Positions 11,943 to 19,558 of a stretch of DNA of 64,000 bases are shown piece by piece. Below the pieces are notes generated by a model, which was not told the origin of the DNA, searched no databases, and was given only the letters and a program-made list of their open reading frames with translations. Each line of letters starts with the position of its first letter. Position 1 is the stretch's first letter. The DNA comes from Tenericutes bacterium HGW-Tenericutes-1 (lineage in GTDB: Bacteria > Bacillota_I > Bacilli_A > Izemoplasmatales > Hujiaoplasmataceae): positions 186,001 to 250,000 of the forward strand of contig PGXM01000004.1 of the NCBI GenBank assembly GCA_002839155.1. Reading direction: 5' to 3'. The position numbers and the translations under genes were made by a program.

Positions 11943-12046
11943 TCACCGGTTTTTATAAATATTGTTTGTGTCTTTTTTAGAGTGTGATATAATATCACAT
12001 GGTATTTTTGAAGTATTTAGAGCATCTCAATAAGGAGGATTATTTC

Positions 12047-13348
12047 ATGATTTTAAGAAAAGCCAAAGGGATTCAAATTGATTGCTATAAACAAATGTCA
12101 AAAGAATCACCTTTGCATGAACATCTCAATCCTCAATTTGTCTATATACCCCTTATTCAACAAACAACAGCTTTAAAACGGACTGTAGAAGTTGGGGACG
12201 ATATTTTGATTGGACAAGTTGTGGCTTTGCGTGAGGGATTTGGTGCGATGCCAATCCATGCTTCAGTCAGCGGAAAAGTATCAGCAATTAAGAAAGTTTG
12301 GCATTGCAGTGGTAAAATGGTTGATGCCATTGAAATCAAAAACGATTTATTACAACGGATGGATGATTCAATCCAACCTGAAGCAGATACGACCCATTTT
12401 ACGCGTGAAGAACTCATAGAAAAAATGAAACAAGCAGGGTTATCTGGTTTAGGCGGCGCAGGCTTCCCAACGTATGTGAAATATCAAACAAAATTACCGA
12501 TTGACGTGGTCATTATCAATGCGGTTGAATGTGAACCTTATTTAACTTGCGATTACATGTTAATCAATGCATATCCTGAAAAACTCTTAAAAGGATTGCA
12601 TTATTTCATGCGTGCAGCGAATGCAAATCGTGGCGTTGTTACTTTCAAATCATACAATACACACGTTAAAGAAGTTTTACAACCTTTATTAGTTAATTAC
12701 CCTGGCATTGAATTAAAAGAAATCAAAGATATTTATCCCGCAGGTTGGGAAAAATATGTCGTTCAACAAGTAACAGGTAAAACCTATGAAGGTCTACCAG
12801 CTGAAGCGGGTGTCATCGTTGATAATTCTGCGACCGCCATGGTTTATGCCGATGTTGTTGAAAAAAATATTCCGCTTATTTCTCGTGTTATTACCATTAC
12901 CGGTGAAGGCGTAAAAAACCCAAGAAACTATTATGTTCCTTTTGGTACTCCAGTGAAAGAATTGATTCAATTATCAGGCGGTTATACGGAAGGTTTAGAT
13001 CCTGCAAAAGCATGGTATATTGCTGGTGGTCCCATGACTGGTCGTGCAATTTTAATTGATGACTTGATTGTTAGTGACACTTTAGGTGCAGTTATCGTTA
13101 AACCAATGCCTGAAGATAAAACACATCCTGAATGTTTAGGCTGTGGTAAATGTGCTGACGTTTGTCCTGTCTTTTTAACACCAACGGAAATTAAAAGAGC
13201 TTATGAAACGAAAGACGTTGAACTCATCAAAAAATTAAACGCTCAAAAATGTATGGCTTGTGGACTTTGCTCTTATGTATGTCCATCCCATATTGAAATT
13301 ACTGATTTTGTTGGTAAGGCTAAAGATTTATTAAGGAAAGGAGCATAA
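12047..13348 (+). CDS. rnfC: Rnf electron transport complex subunit C
   Basis: Two CxxCxxCxxxCP clusters (CLGCGKCADVCP, CMACGLCSYVCP); GLSGLGGAGFPTYVK; aaggagg RBS before ATG 12047. Confidence 0.93.
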   Translation: MILRKAKGIQIDCYKQMSKESPLHEHLNPQFVYIPLIQQTTALKRTVEVGDDILIGQVVALREGFGAMPIHASVSGKVSAIKKVWHCSGKMVDAIEIKNDLLQRMDDSIQPEADTTHFTREELIEKMKQAGLSGLGGAGFPTYVKYQTKLPIDVVIINAVECEPYLTCDYMLINAYPEKLLKGLHYFMRAANANRGVVTFKSYNTHVKEVLQPLLVNYPGIELKEIKDIYPAGWEKYVVQQVTGKTYEGLPAEAGVIVDNSATAMVYADVVEKNIPLISRVITITGEGVKNPRNYYVPFGTPVKELIQLSGGYTEGLDPAKAWYIAGGPMTGRAILIDDLIVSDTLGAVIVKPMPEDKTHPECLGCGKCADVCPVFLTPTEIKRAYETKDVELIKKLNAQKCMACGLCSYVCPSHIEITDFVGKAKDLLRKGA

Positions 13349-13351
13349 AAT

Positions 13352-14542
13352 ATGGCTAGATTTGCAAATGGAAAAGCTCCATTCTTAAGAACCTCTGATG
13401 CAAAGAATTCTGGAACTGGCGTAATCATGAGAGACTTCATGATTGGCTTACTTCCAGTCATCTTATTCGCATGGTACAAAAACGGCATTAAAGTCTTTAT
13501 TGAAGGCAATATTACCTTCCTTGAAATGCTCTATCCGCTAATCTTTATTCTTTTAGGTGGAGTATTATCAACATTATTTGAAGGATTATATTTCTATATC
13601 ACTGATAAGAATGTTCGTAACTTTAAAACTTTAGGACAAAAACTCAAAGTTTCTTACGCAGTTATTCCTGGTTTATTACTCGCTATGGTTGTGCCTATGT
13701 ATACGCCAATTTGGGTATTAATGTTTGGTGCTTTCATGGGAACAATTGTTGGTAAAATGTTATTTGGTGGTTTTGGCAATAACATTTTCAATCCTGCTTT
13801 ACTTGGTTATGTTGCGATTGGTTTTACTATGTTAGGTGTTATTGGAAACGCGGGTGGCGTATTCAATGCCTCTGAAGTCTTAATCGATGCTTATGGTGGT
13901 GCAACCCCTCTTGGAACTTTAGCTGGAACGAAAGTTATTGATTATGATACATTAGTTGCGCCTTATGGTTCATTATGGAATTTCTTATTAGGAACCATTC
14001 CTGGTGCATTAGCAGAAACCGGATCTTTAGCAATTATCATTGCATACATTTGGTTATCTATTCGTAAAGTTATTAAGTGGTTTACACCATTAGTTTATAT
14101 TGGAACTGTCTTTATCCTTTCTTGGTTTATTGGCATGGCAGCAGGAGACGCTGGCATTTGGTTCCCAGTTTATAGCATTTTATCTGGTGGTTTAATGTTT
14201 GGTGCTGTCTTCATGGCCACTGAACCTGTGACGACACCAAGAAACCCACTTGGAAAAGTTGTTTTTGCTTTGTTCTTAGGCGTGTTAACCGTCTTATTTA
14301 GATACATTGGTAATTTACCTGAAGGTGTTGGCACAGCTATTATCGTGATGAATATCTTTACATTGCCAATTGACAAAATGACCGCAATTATTCGTGCTCA
14401 AGGCATCAAAAAATCAACGATTTTTTCTGCCTTAGGCTTAGCAGCTTTCTTACTAATCTTAATGGTTTATGCCATTATTAAAGCTGGAAACGTTTATTCT
14501 GCATTCATCACCTTTGTTCCATTTATTAAGGGGGTGTTTTAA
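13352..14542 (+). CDS. rnfD: Rnf electron transport complex subunit D
   Basis: Multi-TM; FGGFGNNIFNPALLGY; YGGATPLGTL likely covalent-FMN site; EPVTTPRNPLGK. Confidence 0.93.
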   Translation: MARFANGKAPFLRTSDAKNSGTGVIMRDFMIGLLPVILFAWYKNGIKVFIEGNITFLEMLYPLIFILLGGVLSTLFEGLYFYITDKNVRNFKTLGQKLKVSYAVIPGLLLAMVVPMYTPIWVLMFGAFMGTIVGKMLFGGFGNNIFNPALLGYVAIGFTMLGVIGNAGGVFNASEVLIDAYGGATPLGTLAGTKVIDYDTLVAPYGSLWNFLLGTIPGALAETGSLAIIIAYIWLSIRKVIKWFTPLVYIGTVFILSWFIGMAAGDAGIWFPVYSILSGGLMFGAVFMATEPVTTPRNPLGKVVFALFLGVLTVLFRYIGNLPEGVGTAIIVMNIFTLPIDKMTAIIRAQGIKKSTIFSALGLAAFLLILMVYAIIKAGNVYSAFITFVPFIKGVF

Positions 14543-14544
14543 TC

Positions 14545-15714
14545 ATGAAAACATTTTTTAACAAACATGGTCTCATTACCGCACTCGTCTTAATTATCGC
14601 TGTTATCTTCGTAGGTGGCGGATTTTATAGTAACTTCATGACAAATCAAATCGCAGTTCATGAAGAAGAAAATAAGGGTGGAGAACTCAACGCATTATTC
14701 TTAAGCATGTTTACGGGTGCAACAAATGTTGAAGAGTTTGAAACAACTGCTGTTACAAAATCCTATTTCAAACCACTTTCAAATTCAGAAGAATATACGC
14801 CTGTATTAACAGGCAGTTATAAAGTCTTGAACGGTTCTTCTGAAGTTGGTGTTATCTATGTCGTTACAACATTCGGTAAAAATGCGAATTTAACCGTTGC
14901 ATACGGTATTGATTTAGCAAGTGATTCACTCACCCAAATAAAAGTAATTAGCAATGAAGAAACTCCAACTTATTTCGCCAATTTATCAACAAATTTCTAC
15001 ATTCAATTTGTGAATAAATCTTTAGATGATATTGGTTTCTCAATCGACAGCGTTGCTGGTGCTACAATGTCATCAAAAGGGATTGAAACCGGCATGTTTT
15101 ACGCAAGAGAACAATACGCTGCTGATTTTGATTTTACAATTCCTTCGATTGTCATGACCTTAAATTCATTAACATACAATCTCGATCCTACAACATTTGC
15201 AACGAAACCATTTATCGCAGATGTTACTTATGGCGATGAAAATACAAACGTTGTTGTTTATTTGGATTCTAGCTTCACATATGCAGGAATCGTTACTGGA
15301 ACAGAACCAGCAAGTGATGTTCAATCAGGCATTAAGAGTTATGCGTCCGCAAGTGGGCAGGTCGTTACATCAGCGTCATTTGTGAGTTATGACGCAGGTA
15401 CTAGAACTTTAGTTCTAATCTCTAAAGGCTACAACAATACTCCAATTCAAGGAACTTATGTTTTAAATGCAACTTTAGATGGCGTTGAATCATACTCGTT
15501 TATTACAAGCGAATCATATGATAATGAATACAACGGCGGATATAATCATTTGCTTGGTGTTGTTCCTTATGTTGAAAACAACTTATCAGAACAGTTCAAA
15601 AATGGTGAAGTTGAGATTGATGCTATCGCTGGTGCAACCGTTACATCAAATGCCATGAAAAACATGATCAATTTAGTAAAACTCTTCATAGCTGATCAGA
15701 ACGGAGGCGAGTAA
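14545..15714 (+). CDS. RnfG-like membrane-anchored protein with two FMN-binding domains
   Basis: N-terminal TM; two ApbE-type flavinylation motifs DSVAGATMSS and DAIAGATVTS. Confidence 0.85.
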   Translation: MKTFFNKHGLITALVLIIAVIFVGGGFYSNFMTNQIAVHEEENKGGELNALFLSMFTGATNVEEFETTAVTKSYFKPLSNSEEYTPVLTGSYKVLNGSSEVGVIYVVTTFGKNANLTVAYGIDLASDSLTQIKVISNEETPTYFANLSTNFYIQFVNKSLDDIGFSIDSVAGATMSSKGIETGMFYAREQYAADFDFTIPSIVMTLNSLTYNLDPTTFATKPFIADVTYGDENTNVVVYLDSSFTYAGIVTGTEPASDVQSGIKSYASASGQVVTSASFVSYDAGTRTLVLISKGYNNTPIQGTYVLNATLDGVESYSFITSESYDNEYNGGYNHLLGVVPYVENNLSEQFKNGEVEIDAIAGATVTSNAMKNMINLVKLFIADQNGGE

Positions 15715-15716
15715 TC

Positions 15717-16259
15717 ATGAATAAAGGATTAATCTCTGGTCTCGTCTTACTCGTTATTGGTTTAGTGTGTGGTGTGTTATTAGCATTTGTGAATAGTATT
15801 ACCGCACCTATTATCAAAGATAATGCGGATAAACTCGTTTTAGAATCACTCGGTGAAGTTTACGACGGTGCTTCTAATTACACTTTAGATGAAGTTGAAG
15901 GCAGTAACAACGTCGATAAATTATTCTTCTTAAAAGATAAGACATCAGGCGACACGGTTGCGATTATTTATAGCGTACAAGCAGAAGGTTATCAATCAAC
16001 TATCAGCATGTTAATTGCCGTTGAAGTCAATAGTTCCGATGAATTCGTGGTTGCTGGATACAAAGTCGTCAGCCAAGGCGAAACATCAGGCATTGGTGAT
16101 AAAATCGTTGGTTATGATTTCAATATGGAAAATGAAGTAATCACGAATATGGCTGCGTTTGATGGGGTTGCTGGAGCGTCCTTCTCAACAACGGCTGTTA
16201 GAACGTGTTTTGAAGCAGTAGGAGCTCGAGTGGCAGCTGATTTTGGAGGTGCAAACTAA
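15717..16259 (+). CDS. rnfG: Rnf electron transport complex subunit G
   Basis: Single N-terminal TM; EGYQSTISMLIAVE...GETSGIGDKI; DGVAGASFSTTAV flavinylation-like motif. Confidence 0.88.
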   Translation: MNKGLISGLVLLVIGLVCGVLLAFVNSITAPIIKDNADKLVLESLGEVYDGASNYTLDEVEGSNNVDKLFFLKDKTSGDTVAIIYSVQAEGYQSTISMLIAVEVNSSDEFVVAGYKVVSQGETSGIGDKIVGYDFNMENEVITNMAAFDGVAGASFSTTAVRTCFEAVGARVAADFGGAN

Positions 16260-16939
16260 TGAACCAAAAACAAAACTTTTTTAAAGGAATCATTAAAGAA
16301 AATCCTTTATTTGTTACAATTTTAGGAACGTGTCCTTCATTAGCAATTACAACTTCTTTAGAAAATGCCATTGGTATGGGTATTGCAGTTTTCTTTGTCT
16401 TAGTGTTATCAAATTTAATCATTTCTCTCATCACGGTTAATCCTAAAATGAAAGAACTCGTTAAACCAGTTCGTATTCCAGTATATATCGTTGTTATCGC
16501 AACGTTAGTAACCATTGTTGAAATGGTATTACATGCCTTCTTAGTTGATTTATACAATAGTCTTGGCGTTTTCATTCCTTTAATCGTTGTTAACTGTATC
16601 ATTTTGGGAAGAGCAGAAGCTTTTGCCTCTGACAACAAACCATTAGATTCAGTCGTTGACGGCATGGGAATGGCTGTTGGTTATACTTTAGCATTAATGT
16701 CAATTTCGTTCTTCAGAGAATTACTCGGAAGAGGATTAATCACCATTTGGGGTGAAAAATCAGTCAATCCAATTCAACTCAATTTAGTTCCGATTTTTGA
16801 GTTTATTGGTATTGAACCTATTAACATGTTCTTACAACCCGTTGGCGCTTTCTTAACATTCGGATTTATCTTAGCAGTATTAGCCGCAATCGCCAATAAA
16901 AAATCGGCCAAAATGGCAAGTGAGGTGAAACAAGCATGA
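16259..16939 (+). CDS. rnfE: Rnf electron transport complex subunit E
   Basis: KENPLFVTILGTCPSLAITTSLENAIGMG; NCIILGRAEAFAS. Confidence 0.93.
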   Translation: MNQKQNFFKGIIKENPLFVTILGTCPSLAITTSLENAIGMGIAVFFVLVLSNLIISLITVNPKMKELVKPVRIPVYIVVIATLVTIVEMVLHAFLVDLYNSLGVFIPLIVVNCIILGRAEAFASDNKPLDSVVDGMGMAVGYTLALMSISFFRELLGRGLITIWGEKSVNPIQLNLVPIFEFIGIEPINMFLQPVGAFLTFGFILAVLAAIANKKSAKMASEVKQA

Positions 16940-17517
16940 GTATTAGCGCATTAATTTCATTAGCTTTCACCGCTTTAATCATTGAAAACGTCATTTTGAC
17001 CCAATTTTTAGGAATTTGTCCTTTCCTAGGCGTTTCTAAAAAACGGAGTTCAGCCGTCGGTATGGGGATGGCTGTTGTCGCAGTAATTTTACTTGCGGGA
17101 ATCATCACTTGGACCTTGTATCATTATGTTCTATCTCCACTAAAGATGGAATATATGCAAACCATTGTCTTCATCTTAGTTATTGCAGCATTAGTACAAA
17201 TGGTTGAATTAATAGTCAAGAAAATTTCTCCCGCTTTATATAAAGCATTAGGAATTTATCTGCCACTTATCACCACAAACTGTGCCGTTTTAGGTGTTGC
17301 ATTACTCAATATTCGTAAAGATTTCGGATTTGCTGAAATGCTTGTTTACTCTCTCTTTATTCCTCTAGGTTTCTTGTTAGTCATTACCATTTTCTCAATG
17401 TTAAGAGAAAAAATTGAAATGGCTCCTGTACCTAAGGCCTTTAAAGGAACACCCATTGCATTAGTCGTTGCAGCGATTCTAGCGATGATTTTCTCAAGAT
17501 TTGGAGGCTTAATCTAA
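16936..17517 (+). CDS. rnfA: Rnf electron transport complex subunit A
   Basis: ENVILTQFLGICPFLGVSKK; TNCAVLGVALLN; overlaps rnfE by 4 bp. Confidence 0.93.
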   Translation: MSISALISLAFTALIIENVILTQFLGICPFLGVSKKRSSAVGMGMAVVAVILLAGIITWTLYHYVLSPLKMEYMQTIVFILVIAALVQMVELIVKKISPALYKALGIYLPLITTNCAVLGVALLNIRKDFGFAEMLVYSLFIPLGFLLVITIFSMLREKIEMAPVPKAFKGTPIALVVAAILAMIFSRFGGLI

Positions 17518-17518
17518 G

Positions 17519-17824
17519 ATGGATATTTTAATACCCGCATTAGTACTTGGAGCCATCGGATTTGTTTTAGGACTTTTAATTAATATTGTCAGTAAATATT
17601 TCCATGTCGAAGAAGATCATCGTATCGAAAAAATTGAAGAAATGTTACCAAAATACAACTGTGGCGCATGTGGATATGCAGGCTGTCATGATATGGCTAT
17701 TGGATTATTAAACAAAAAAAGTATCGTTAGCCAATGTAAGCCGATTAAAGAAGAAGCAAAAGTTGCATTAATGGCACATCTCGATCAACTATTCAAAGCA
17801 GAAAAAGAAGAATCAAATAACTAA
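17519..17824 (+). CDS. rnfB: Short RnfB: N-terminal TM + single CxxCxxxxC Fe-S domain, no ferredoxin domain
   Basis: LPKYNCGACGYAGCHDMAIGLLN...QCKP; only 101 aa, followed directly by a terminator. Confidence 0.85.
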   Translation: MDILIPALVLGAIGFVLGLLINIVSKYFHVEEDHRIEKIEEMLPKYNCGACGYAGCHDMAIGLLNKKSIVSQCKPIKEEAKVALMAHLDQLFKAEKEESNN

Positions 17825-17830
17825 TTTAAG

Positions 17831-17856
17831 GCGTTTTCCGTAAGGGAAACGCTTTT
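17831..17856 (+). terminator. Rho-independent terminator after rnfB
   Basis: gcgttttcc-gtaa-gggaaacgc-tttt. Confidence 0.8.
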
Positions 17857-17956
17857 CAATATGAAAAGGTATTCACGCTCATTTTGGGTATTGCTTTATT
17901 TAGTCAGTTAGACTATAATAAATAGCGGTTAAACTATATTATAGGAGGAAAGAAAA

Positions 17957-18925
17957 ATGAAAAAAATTGGATTACTACTTTTAGTAGTATTCGCATCTGT
18001 AGCATTATTCGGATGCACCCAAGGTGAATTCAAAGTTGACGGTGAATTCATGGCTTTCGAAACTAGCGTACATTCAAACGGCGCTATGCAAGTCACAATG
18101 GTATCAGTCATTATCGAAAACGGCGAAATCGTTGGTTACAACATCGATGCTCGTCAAGGAACAAAAACTCAAACTGCTGGAGCTGACACAACTGAAGATA
18201 CTTCAGATGACGTTTATAGCTTCGCATGGAACACAAAAACCAAAAAACAACTTGGCGACGCTTATAACATGGTAACATACGGCAATGCTATTGCTGAATG
18301 GTATGTTCAAGCTGGACGCATCGAAGCGGCGATGCTAGCTAATGGTGTAGATTCTGTTACAACAAACGCTGAAACTCATGTTATTGATAACGTCGCTGGC
18401 GTTACAATTAAAGACGGCGGATACCTTGCTTTAGCAGCTGAAGCAGTTGAATTAGCAAAAGCTGGAAAATTCCAAGCAGTGGTTTGCTCAGGCACAGATT
18501 TATACATTGCTTCTATGGTTGTAGCTAAAGGCGAAATTTCTGAATTAGAATTAAACGTTCTCCAAAAGAAATCAGTTTTAGCTAATAAAGCTGTATTCGA
18601 ATGGAATGAAAAAACTAAACAAGAACTTGGTGCTGATTATGGCATGAAGGGTACTGGCGCAGCTTATACATTCGCTAATGGCGTTTGGACTGCAAGTGCA
18701 ACTGAAAAATCAGCTAACGAATGGTTTGAACAAGCTAACCTCATTACAAACTATGTAATGGAAAATGGCAACGTTTATAACTTAAGAGCAATCGGCGGCA
18801 GAGGTATCTCTGTAGACGGTTCAACAATCGTTGACGGTCTTGCTGGCGTAACAATCAAAACTGAAACATACATCGTTGTATTAACAGATTTGTTTGCTAA
18901 CGTTGCTAATGGTCAATTGAAATAA
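17957..18925 (+). CDS. Lipoprotein with two FMN-binding-domain-like repeats
   Basis: Lipobox SVALFGC; repeats end with DNVAGVTIK and DGLAGVTIK; WNTKTKKQLGDAYNM / WNEKTKQELGADYGM repeated segments; aggagg RBS. Confidence 0.75.
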   Translation: MKKIGLLLLVVFASVALFGCTQGEFKVDGEFMAFETSVHSNGAMQVTMVSVIIENGEIVGYNIDARQGTKTQTAGADTTEDTSDDVYSFAWNTKTKKQLGDAYNMVTYGNAIAEWYVQAGRIEAAMLANGVDSVTTNAETHVIDNVAGVTIKDGGYLALAAEAVELAKAGKFQAVVCSGTDLYIASMVVAKGEISELELNVLQKKSVLANKAVFEWNEKTKQELGADYGMKGTGAAYTFANGVWTASATEKSANEWFEQANLITNYVMENGNVYNLRAIGGRGISVDGSTIVDGLAGVTIKTETYIVVLTDLFANVANGQLK

Positions 18926-18939
18926 TCTAAGTCAAAATT

Positions 18940-18968
18940 AAAAGTTGTTCTTCGGAGCAACTTTTTTC
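18940..18968 (+). terminator. Rho-independent terminator
   Basis: aaaagttgttc-ttcg-gagcaactttttt. Confidence 0.85.
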
Positions 18969-19033: not shown

Positions 19034-19558
19034 ATGAACTCTACTGAAGTTATTATTCTTGCCGGTTCACTTATCCTCGTCAGCTTAATTGCTTATTATT
19101 CAATTAAATTGATTGTTGATAAAAACCGACATAATGCCATTTTAAAAATATTTAATGAGATTTTGCCCAAGGCTATTATAGAAAAATCAACTGAGAAATT
19201 TTATGAATATCATTTTGAGTATTGTGATAAATTATACTTAATCAAAGTATTGCCTTTTGATTTACATCATGAACTGATTATCACTAATAAGTATTATTGG
19301 TGTATGAATGCAGATTTAAAAGGTTGGAAAAGATCAACAGTTCCAGATTTATTTCCAGGCGTTAAAGAATTCGTTGATTATAGTCCTTTAACTAAGTTAA
19401 AAGTAGTAAAAATTGCGTTGATTATGCCTGACTGTCACAATATCATAAGGTATCTTAACGAAAGTGATGTTGCGAAGGTACTTCATTCGGATTTAGTCTA
19501 TGGAGTCTACTTTGTTAAGGCGGTTGAATTACAGAGTTTTTTTCCTAAAACTGATTGA
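19034..19558 (+). CDS. Hypothetical protein with N-terminal TM helix
   Basis: Long ORF with gaggtg RBS; VIILAGSLILVSLIAYYSIKLIV TM; no recognised family. Confidence 0.7.
   Translation: MNSTEVIILAGSLILVSLIAYYSIKLIVDKNRHNAILKIFNEILPKAIIEKSTEKFYEYHFEYCDKLYLIKVLPFDLHHELIITNKYYWCMNADLKGWKRSTVPDLFPGVKEFVDYSPLTKLKVVKIALIMPDCHNIIRYLNESDVAKVLHSDLVYGVYFVKAVELQSFFPKTD

Follow-up and report, generated by a model that had tools for sequence, protein, structure and literature searches.

Surveys of extracytosolic flavin electron transfer rest largely on the Pfam FMN_bind profile (PF04205) and on the [S/T]GA[S/T] motif. In Listeria, the FAD-exporter subunit EetB is needed for flavinylation. Among the closest described proteins, FMN-bind2 was found by BLAST searches and described from an Erysipelotrichaceae bacterium (PMC11334425; Huang et al. 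2024, mSystems). These are extracytosolic proteins of the FMN_bind type, their domains about 160 amino acids long and often even in number (two or four), with two flavin sites per pseudo-symmetric unit, insertions between β1 and β2 and between β3 and α1, and domains packed through their sheets (PMC11334425). PplA and Cad (the cAD1 precursor) are lipoproteins with two FMN_bind-type domains and canonical SGAT sites, and cad-apbE pairs have been reported only in genomes lacking rnf (PMC7074142). RnfG and NqrC carry the FMN_bind domain on a transmembrane helix. The nearest solved structures by sequence and fold, 2kzx (A3DHT5, Clostridium thermocellum) and 3o6u (CPE2226), the latter being the template used for modelling cAD1 (PMC7074142), each consist of one domain, whose site is canonical (ISGATIK or ITGATS).

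The window, the whole 64,000-nucleotide stretch analysed here, encodes a lipoprotein downstream of an Rnf operon. It is likely a PplA-like, probably FMN-bind2-type, electron carrier with two FMN groups that works with Rnf and passes electrons to extracellular acceptors. The features of the locus are as follows.

11999-17824, + strand, Rnf operon of seven genes (open reading frame list, Pfam and NCBIfam scans)
11999-13348, + strand, rnfC
13352-14542, + strand, rnfD
14545-15714, + strand, two-domain rnfG-like gene
15717-16259, + strand, rnfG
16259-16939, + strand, rnfE
16936-17517, + strand, rnfA
17519-17824, + strand, short rnfB
17828-17855, + strand, terminator-like hairpin with a TTTT tail, in the gap after rnfB (12 bp, -15.8 kcal/mol)
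17891-17919, + strand, promoter-like element TTGCTT-17-TATAAT upstream of the lipoprotein gene (TTGC and TATAAT unchanged across six genomes)
17957-18925, + strand, lipoprotein with two FMN_bind-type domains, 322 amino acids (open reading frame, family alignment, AlphaFold2 model, Foldseek matches to 2kzx and 3o6u)
17957-18016, + strand, signal peptide with lipobox LFGC, acceptor Cys20 at 18014-18016 (sequence, Cys20 conservation)
18023-18472, + strand, first domain, residues 23-172, with the signature K-x-x-L-G-x-x-Y-x-M and E-W-x-x-Q-A
18386-18412, + strand, site 1, DNVAGVTIK, residues 144-152, predicted FMN acceptor Thr150 (18404-18406)
18473-18916, + strand, second domain, residues 173-320, with the same signature
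18833-18859, + strand, site 2, DGLAGVTIK, residues 293-301, predicted FMN acceptor Thr299 (18851-18853)
18940-18965, + strand, terminator-like hairpin after the lipoprotein gene (hairpin detection)

The lipoprotein gene starts with ATG and is preceded by the ribosome-binding site AGGAGG at 17943-17948. The first-pass annotation had described a lipoprotein with an FGC lipobox lying directly downstream of rnfB. The lipobox is confirmed, with Cys20 invariant in 22 orthologues (alignment A1), and so is the gene order, but the two genes are not in contact, being separated by 132 bp. Hairpins of differing sequence are visible in this gap in most aligned relatives, and in the six genomes the TTGC and TATAAT elements are unchanged although the hairpin sequences differ. 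The promoter-like site was missed by a consensus promoter scanner because its -35 element is weak. As the gap holds both a hairpin and a promoter-like site with invariant TTGC and TATAAT, the lipoprotein gene is probably its own transcription unit that stays beside rnf. In many relatives, as in the window (19034-19558), the lipoprotein gene is followed by a gene for a 174-amino acid protein whose N-terminus holds a membrane-type segment and which matches nothing in Pfam.

The protein consists of two homologous halves, as had been proposed: residues 23-172 match the remainder of the lipoprotein with an E-value of 1e-7 in BLASTP, and a single domain HMM finds two matches in almost all homologues. 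In each half K-x-x-L-G-x-x-Y-x-M is followed by E-W-x-x-Q-A and then by the site D-x-x-A-G-V-T, and the K, Y, M, W and Q of the signature are 97-100% conserved across 204 aligned domains. The number of domains varies among relatives. One 835-amino acid protein (L016, 586-3090) has six in tandem, the second domain of a repeat carrying ANVSIT instead of AGVTIK, and in a sister family three lipoproteins (L028, L029 and L030) join one or more rhodanese domains to a single copy of the flavin-type domain.

Direct scans of the window lipoprotein gave no match to Pfam FMN_bind and no informative match in NCBIfam, where the RnfG family TIGR01947 was not matched. The Pfam profile matches only 2 of the 22 orthologues, weakly (E 0.019), and hhalign against a local RnfG alignment gave a weak match in which only the motif region aligned. 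A profile of the 22 orthologues (A1) nevertheless finds the FMN_bind structure 2kzx with an E-value of 2.2e-8, and the matching part of 2kzx exceeds the PF04205 cut-off (25.9 versus 22 bits). The AlphaFold2 model of the lipoprotein, built on 82 relatives, has a pLDDT of 93 and a pTM of 0.88, and its top Foldseek matches are 2kzx (2.9e-4) and 3o6u (8e-3), both with probability 1.00; the other PDB matches were dismissed as chance. With the model of a clostridial homologue alone, Foldseek returned no significant match. Distant homologues from other Bacilli-class genomes (L142-L144) have canonical or nearly canonical SGAT, TGAT or AGAT at the site column (DLLSGATIG, AGATVK and TGATVK), and one of them (L144) scores 18.4 bits to Pfam FMN_bind, below the 22-bit cut-off. 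Judged by these intermediate sequences and the modelled fold, the lipoprotein belongs to the FMN_bind superfamily, below the Pfam gathering score. The earlier assignment of two FMN_bind-type domains is thus upheld, and the objection that the protein might lack FMN_bind homology or have an unrelated fold fails because profile, model and intermediate homologues, with their canonical GAT sites, agree.

Compared with FMN-bind2, the window lipoprotein has two halves of about 150 amino acids, and its relatives have six domains or, in the rhodanese fusions, one. The portions of the FMN-bind2 main text describing these proteins report neither a GVT, SVT or GCT site nor a linkage to Rnf (PMC11334425). 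In our model (pTM 0.88) an extra segment lies between β3 and the site, as seen in the DSSP string alone. Set side by side by description only, the lipoprotein family is probably the same as, or sister to, the FMN-bind2 proteins described in that source. The PplA-like layout suggested in the first pass holds, in that homologues occupy the pplA position in EET clusters. The likeness to PplA and Cad is one of layout and gene position, with homologues in Clostridia lying beside apbE (fmnB), dmk, ndh2 and eetAB. In contrast to PplA and Cad, the window family has AGVT, SSVT or AGCT sites, the K..LG..Y.M...EW..QA signature and no Pfam match, and the window gene is linked to Rnf, with ApbE and EetB encoded elsewhere in the genome. 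With RnfG and NqrC the lipoprotein has in common the superfamily, the position of the attachment site and the gene neighborhood, but it is lipid-anchored, has two domains and matches the profile weakly. The GYxM...EWxxQA signature is shared with 2kzx, from which, as from 3o6u, the lipoprotein differs in its two domains and its non-canonical sites. Proteins of this kind are already known; we found no earlier description of a non-canonical site that is fixed, or of such a link to Rnf in Izemoplasma-type bacteria.

The D-x-x-AGVTIK noted earlier is present in both halves, as DNVAGVTIK and DGLAGVTIK, and when the mature lipoprotein, residues 21-322, was shuffled only 1 of 2000 shuffles contained even one such motif. 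The sections of a study that treat the ApbE motif give it as seven residues, D-x-x-[S/T]-G-A-[S/T], and cite mutagenesis in which exchange of Ala for Val leaves about 50% flavinylation, Asp-to-Ala has a minor effect and Thr-to-Ala leaves none (PMC12052999). Both halves depart from this motif, reading D-x-x-A-G-V-T. The acceptor, which the first-pass annotation had described as kept, is Thr or Ser in every domain of the family aligned over the site, a count from which six Clostridia rows not aligned there were left out. Just before it, at position -1, Val stands in 124 of the 134 Izemoplasma-type domains, and of the 61 Clostridia domains that align at this place 60 have Val or Cys. For the Rnf proteins of these operons, Ala occupies 23 of 24 readable sites in RnfD; of 51 RnfG-type domains, 38 have Ala and 7 have Val. 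Because RnfD and most RnfG domains keep Ala, Val at this position is, as read from the alignments, a fixed trait of the lipoprotein family and not a lineage-wide change; it also occurs in bona fide RnfG, since true RnfG subunits in related operons carry GVT. That Val is nearly fixed next to such neighbors argues that it is held by something other than free drift. The Lys after the motif, to which some meaning had been attached as a change from Ser or Thr, was rejected as significant, since it lies outside the seven-residue motif and is shared by 2kzx (ISGATIK).

The change from Ala to Val had also raised the prospect that the flavin is non-covalent or the ligand a different one. On this reading, which we consider unlikely, the FMN_bind fold is kept but the AGVT site is not used by ApbE, consistent with the fixation of Val or Cys in the lipoprotein family but not in its operon partners RnfG and RnfD, with a motif Gly that is Ser in most Clostridia members, and with family members in which the Asp or Gly is lost or the site is divergent. 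Against it, the essentially invariant acceptor would be needless in a non-covalent site, about half of flavinylation survives the Ala-to-Val exchange in the mutagenesis reported (PMC12052999), and GVT occurs in true RnfG. In Clostridia, moreover, apbE lies directly downstream of the lipoprotein gene in 29 of 34 loci, some of the 34 being near-duplicates of one species. At about 20 of the 29 the lipoprotein is the only evident candidate ApbE substrate, because no canonical-site protein is encoded within the fetched region. The variant site common to the whole family therefore looks, from its conservation, like one that probably still accepts flavin, and because Val or Cys is fixed in the lipoprotein family alone, ApbE specificity or efficiency may be altered. 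More tentatively, the family may use a distinct ApbE signature, D-x-x-[A/S/T]-[G/S]-[V/C]-[T/S], fixed across Bacilli-class bacteria and Clostridia and served by a neighboring or dedicated ApbE, in which case it could stand in for PplA, with Rnf as its docking partner in wall-less bacteria and Ndh2 in Clostridia, and would have been overlooked by motif- and Pfam-based surveys.

The Clostridia loci also place the family among genes for extracellular electron transfer. Alongside it, gene clustering found UbiA, polyprenyl synthase and Ndh2-type genes in 17-19 loci; for EetA/EetB-type genes the count is 11-16. About half of the loci are EET clusters comprising ndh2, polyprenyl synthase, UbiA, the lipoprotein, apbE, eetA and eetB, with the gene names confirmed by Pfam for sample genes of three loci (L106, L092 and L101). 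The same gene set has been described for flavin-based extracellular electron transfer in Listeria (PMC9973259). The lipoprotein family takes the place of pplA in these clostridial clusters.

In the window's own GTDB family the lipoprotein gene is present in 27 of 34 genomes and ApbE in all 34, and in the sampled phylum the gene occurs in 95 of 388 genomes and 63 of 157 genera; tblastn found no homologues on plasmids. The window's own genome encodes one ApbE, at 131966-132892 of contig C11, and an EetB homologue. Of 41 assessable named loci in Izemoplasma-type bacteria, 26 have the gene right after rnfB; in the others it lies mostly beside lepA. The lepA-linked copies were considered as a second EET locus and rejected, their neighbors being lepA, hemN-like and integrase genes. 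In a test of 22 carrier genomes, in some of which the gene does not adjoin rnf, Rnf was present in all 22 and ApbE in 21.

This linkage could also mean that the lipoprotein is a flavinylated accessory subunit of Rnf itself, cycling electrons inside the pump and not out of the cell. The position right after rnfB in most Izemoplasma-type genomes, the presence of Rnf in every carrier tested and an operon that already has an extra two-domain RnfG-like subunit are in keeping with such a role, but it appears quite improbable: the lipoprotein is free and its gene has a conserved promoter-like site of its own; in many genomes that gene lies away from rnf, beside lepA, and in Clostridia it belongs to EET clusters of the ndh2 type, mostly with no rnf in the vicinity; and some relatives that lack the lipoprotein still keep Rnf. 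Delivery of electrons to a dedicated extracytosolic reductase or an enzyme that handles sulfur, instead of a general extracellular acceptor, is suggested by the rhodanese fusions of the sister family (L028-L030) but is very unlikely, as neither the window nor most of the relatives examined have a reductase gene alongside.

In the favored reading, that of a two-FMN carrier working with Rnf, the protein would be a membrane-anchored extracytosolic lipoprotein to which ApbE joins, through a phosphoester, one FMN per domain, on Thr150 and Thr299. Electrons would reach the outer face of the membrane via Rnf in the window's bacterium or via Ndh2 and quinone in Clostridia. The donor to the lipoprotein would most likely be the flavinylated Rnf subunits, namely RnfG, the two-domain RnfG-like protein and RnfD, and the two FMN groups would pass the electrons on to an extracellular acceptor. 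The lipoprotein would thus play for Rnf the part that PplA plays for Ndh2 in Listeria-type extracellular electron transfer, which would connect Rnf with a possible extracellular route for electrons in free-living relatives of the Mollicutes. The family mostly escapes PF04205 and [S/T]GA[S/T], yet about a quarter of the sampled phylum genomes carry it, and many clostridial EET clusters have it where pplA would stand. Because so widespread a family largely escapes both, flavin-based extracellular respiration and the range of sequences recognized by ApbE may extend further than estimated.

The Rnf operon itself shows several peculiarities. The RnfB of the window has only 101 amino acids, comprising a membrane segment and a single Fe-S motif and lacking the C-terminal ferredoxin domain; lengths of about 100-130 amino acids are typical in the window's relatives, compared with 270-296 in Clostridia. 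The extra RnfG-like protein between rnfD and rnfG has two canonical FMN_bind domains (SVAGAT and AIAGAT). In two relatives (L076 and L077) the rnfD reading frame is 744-762 amino acids long, and in the first of these (L076, 3190-5475) the RnfD part of the protein is followed by two more sites of the SGAT type, and RnfD's own flavin site is SGVTPL, not SGATPL.
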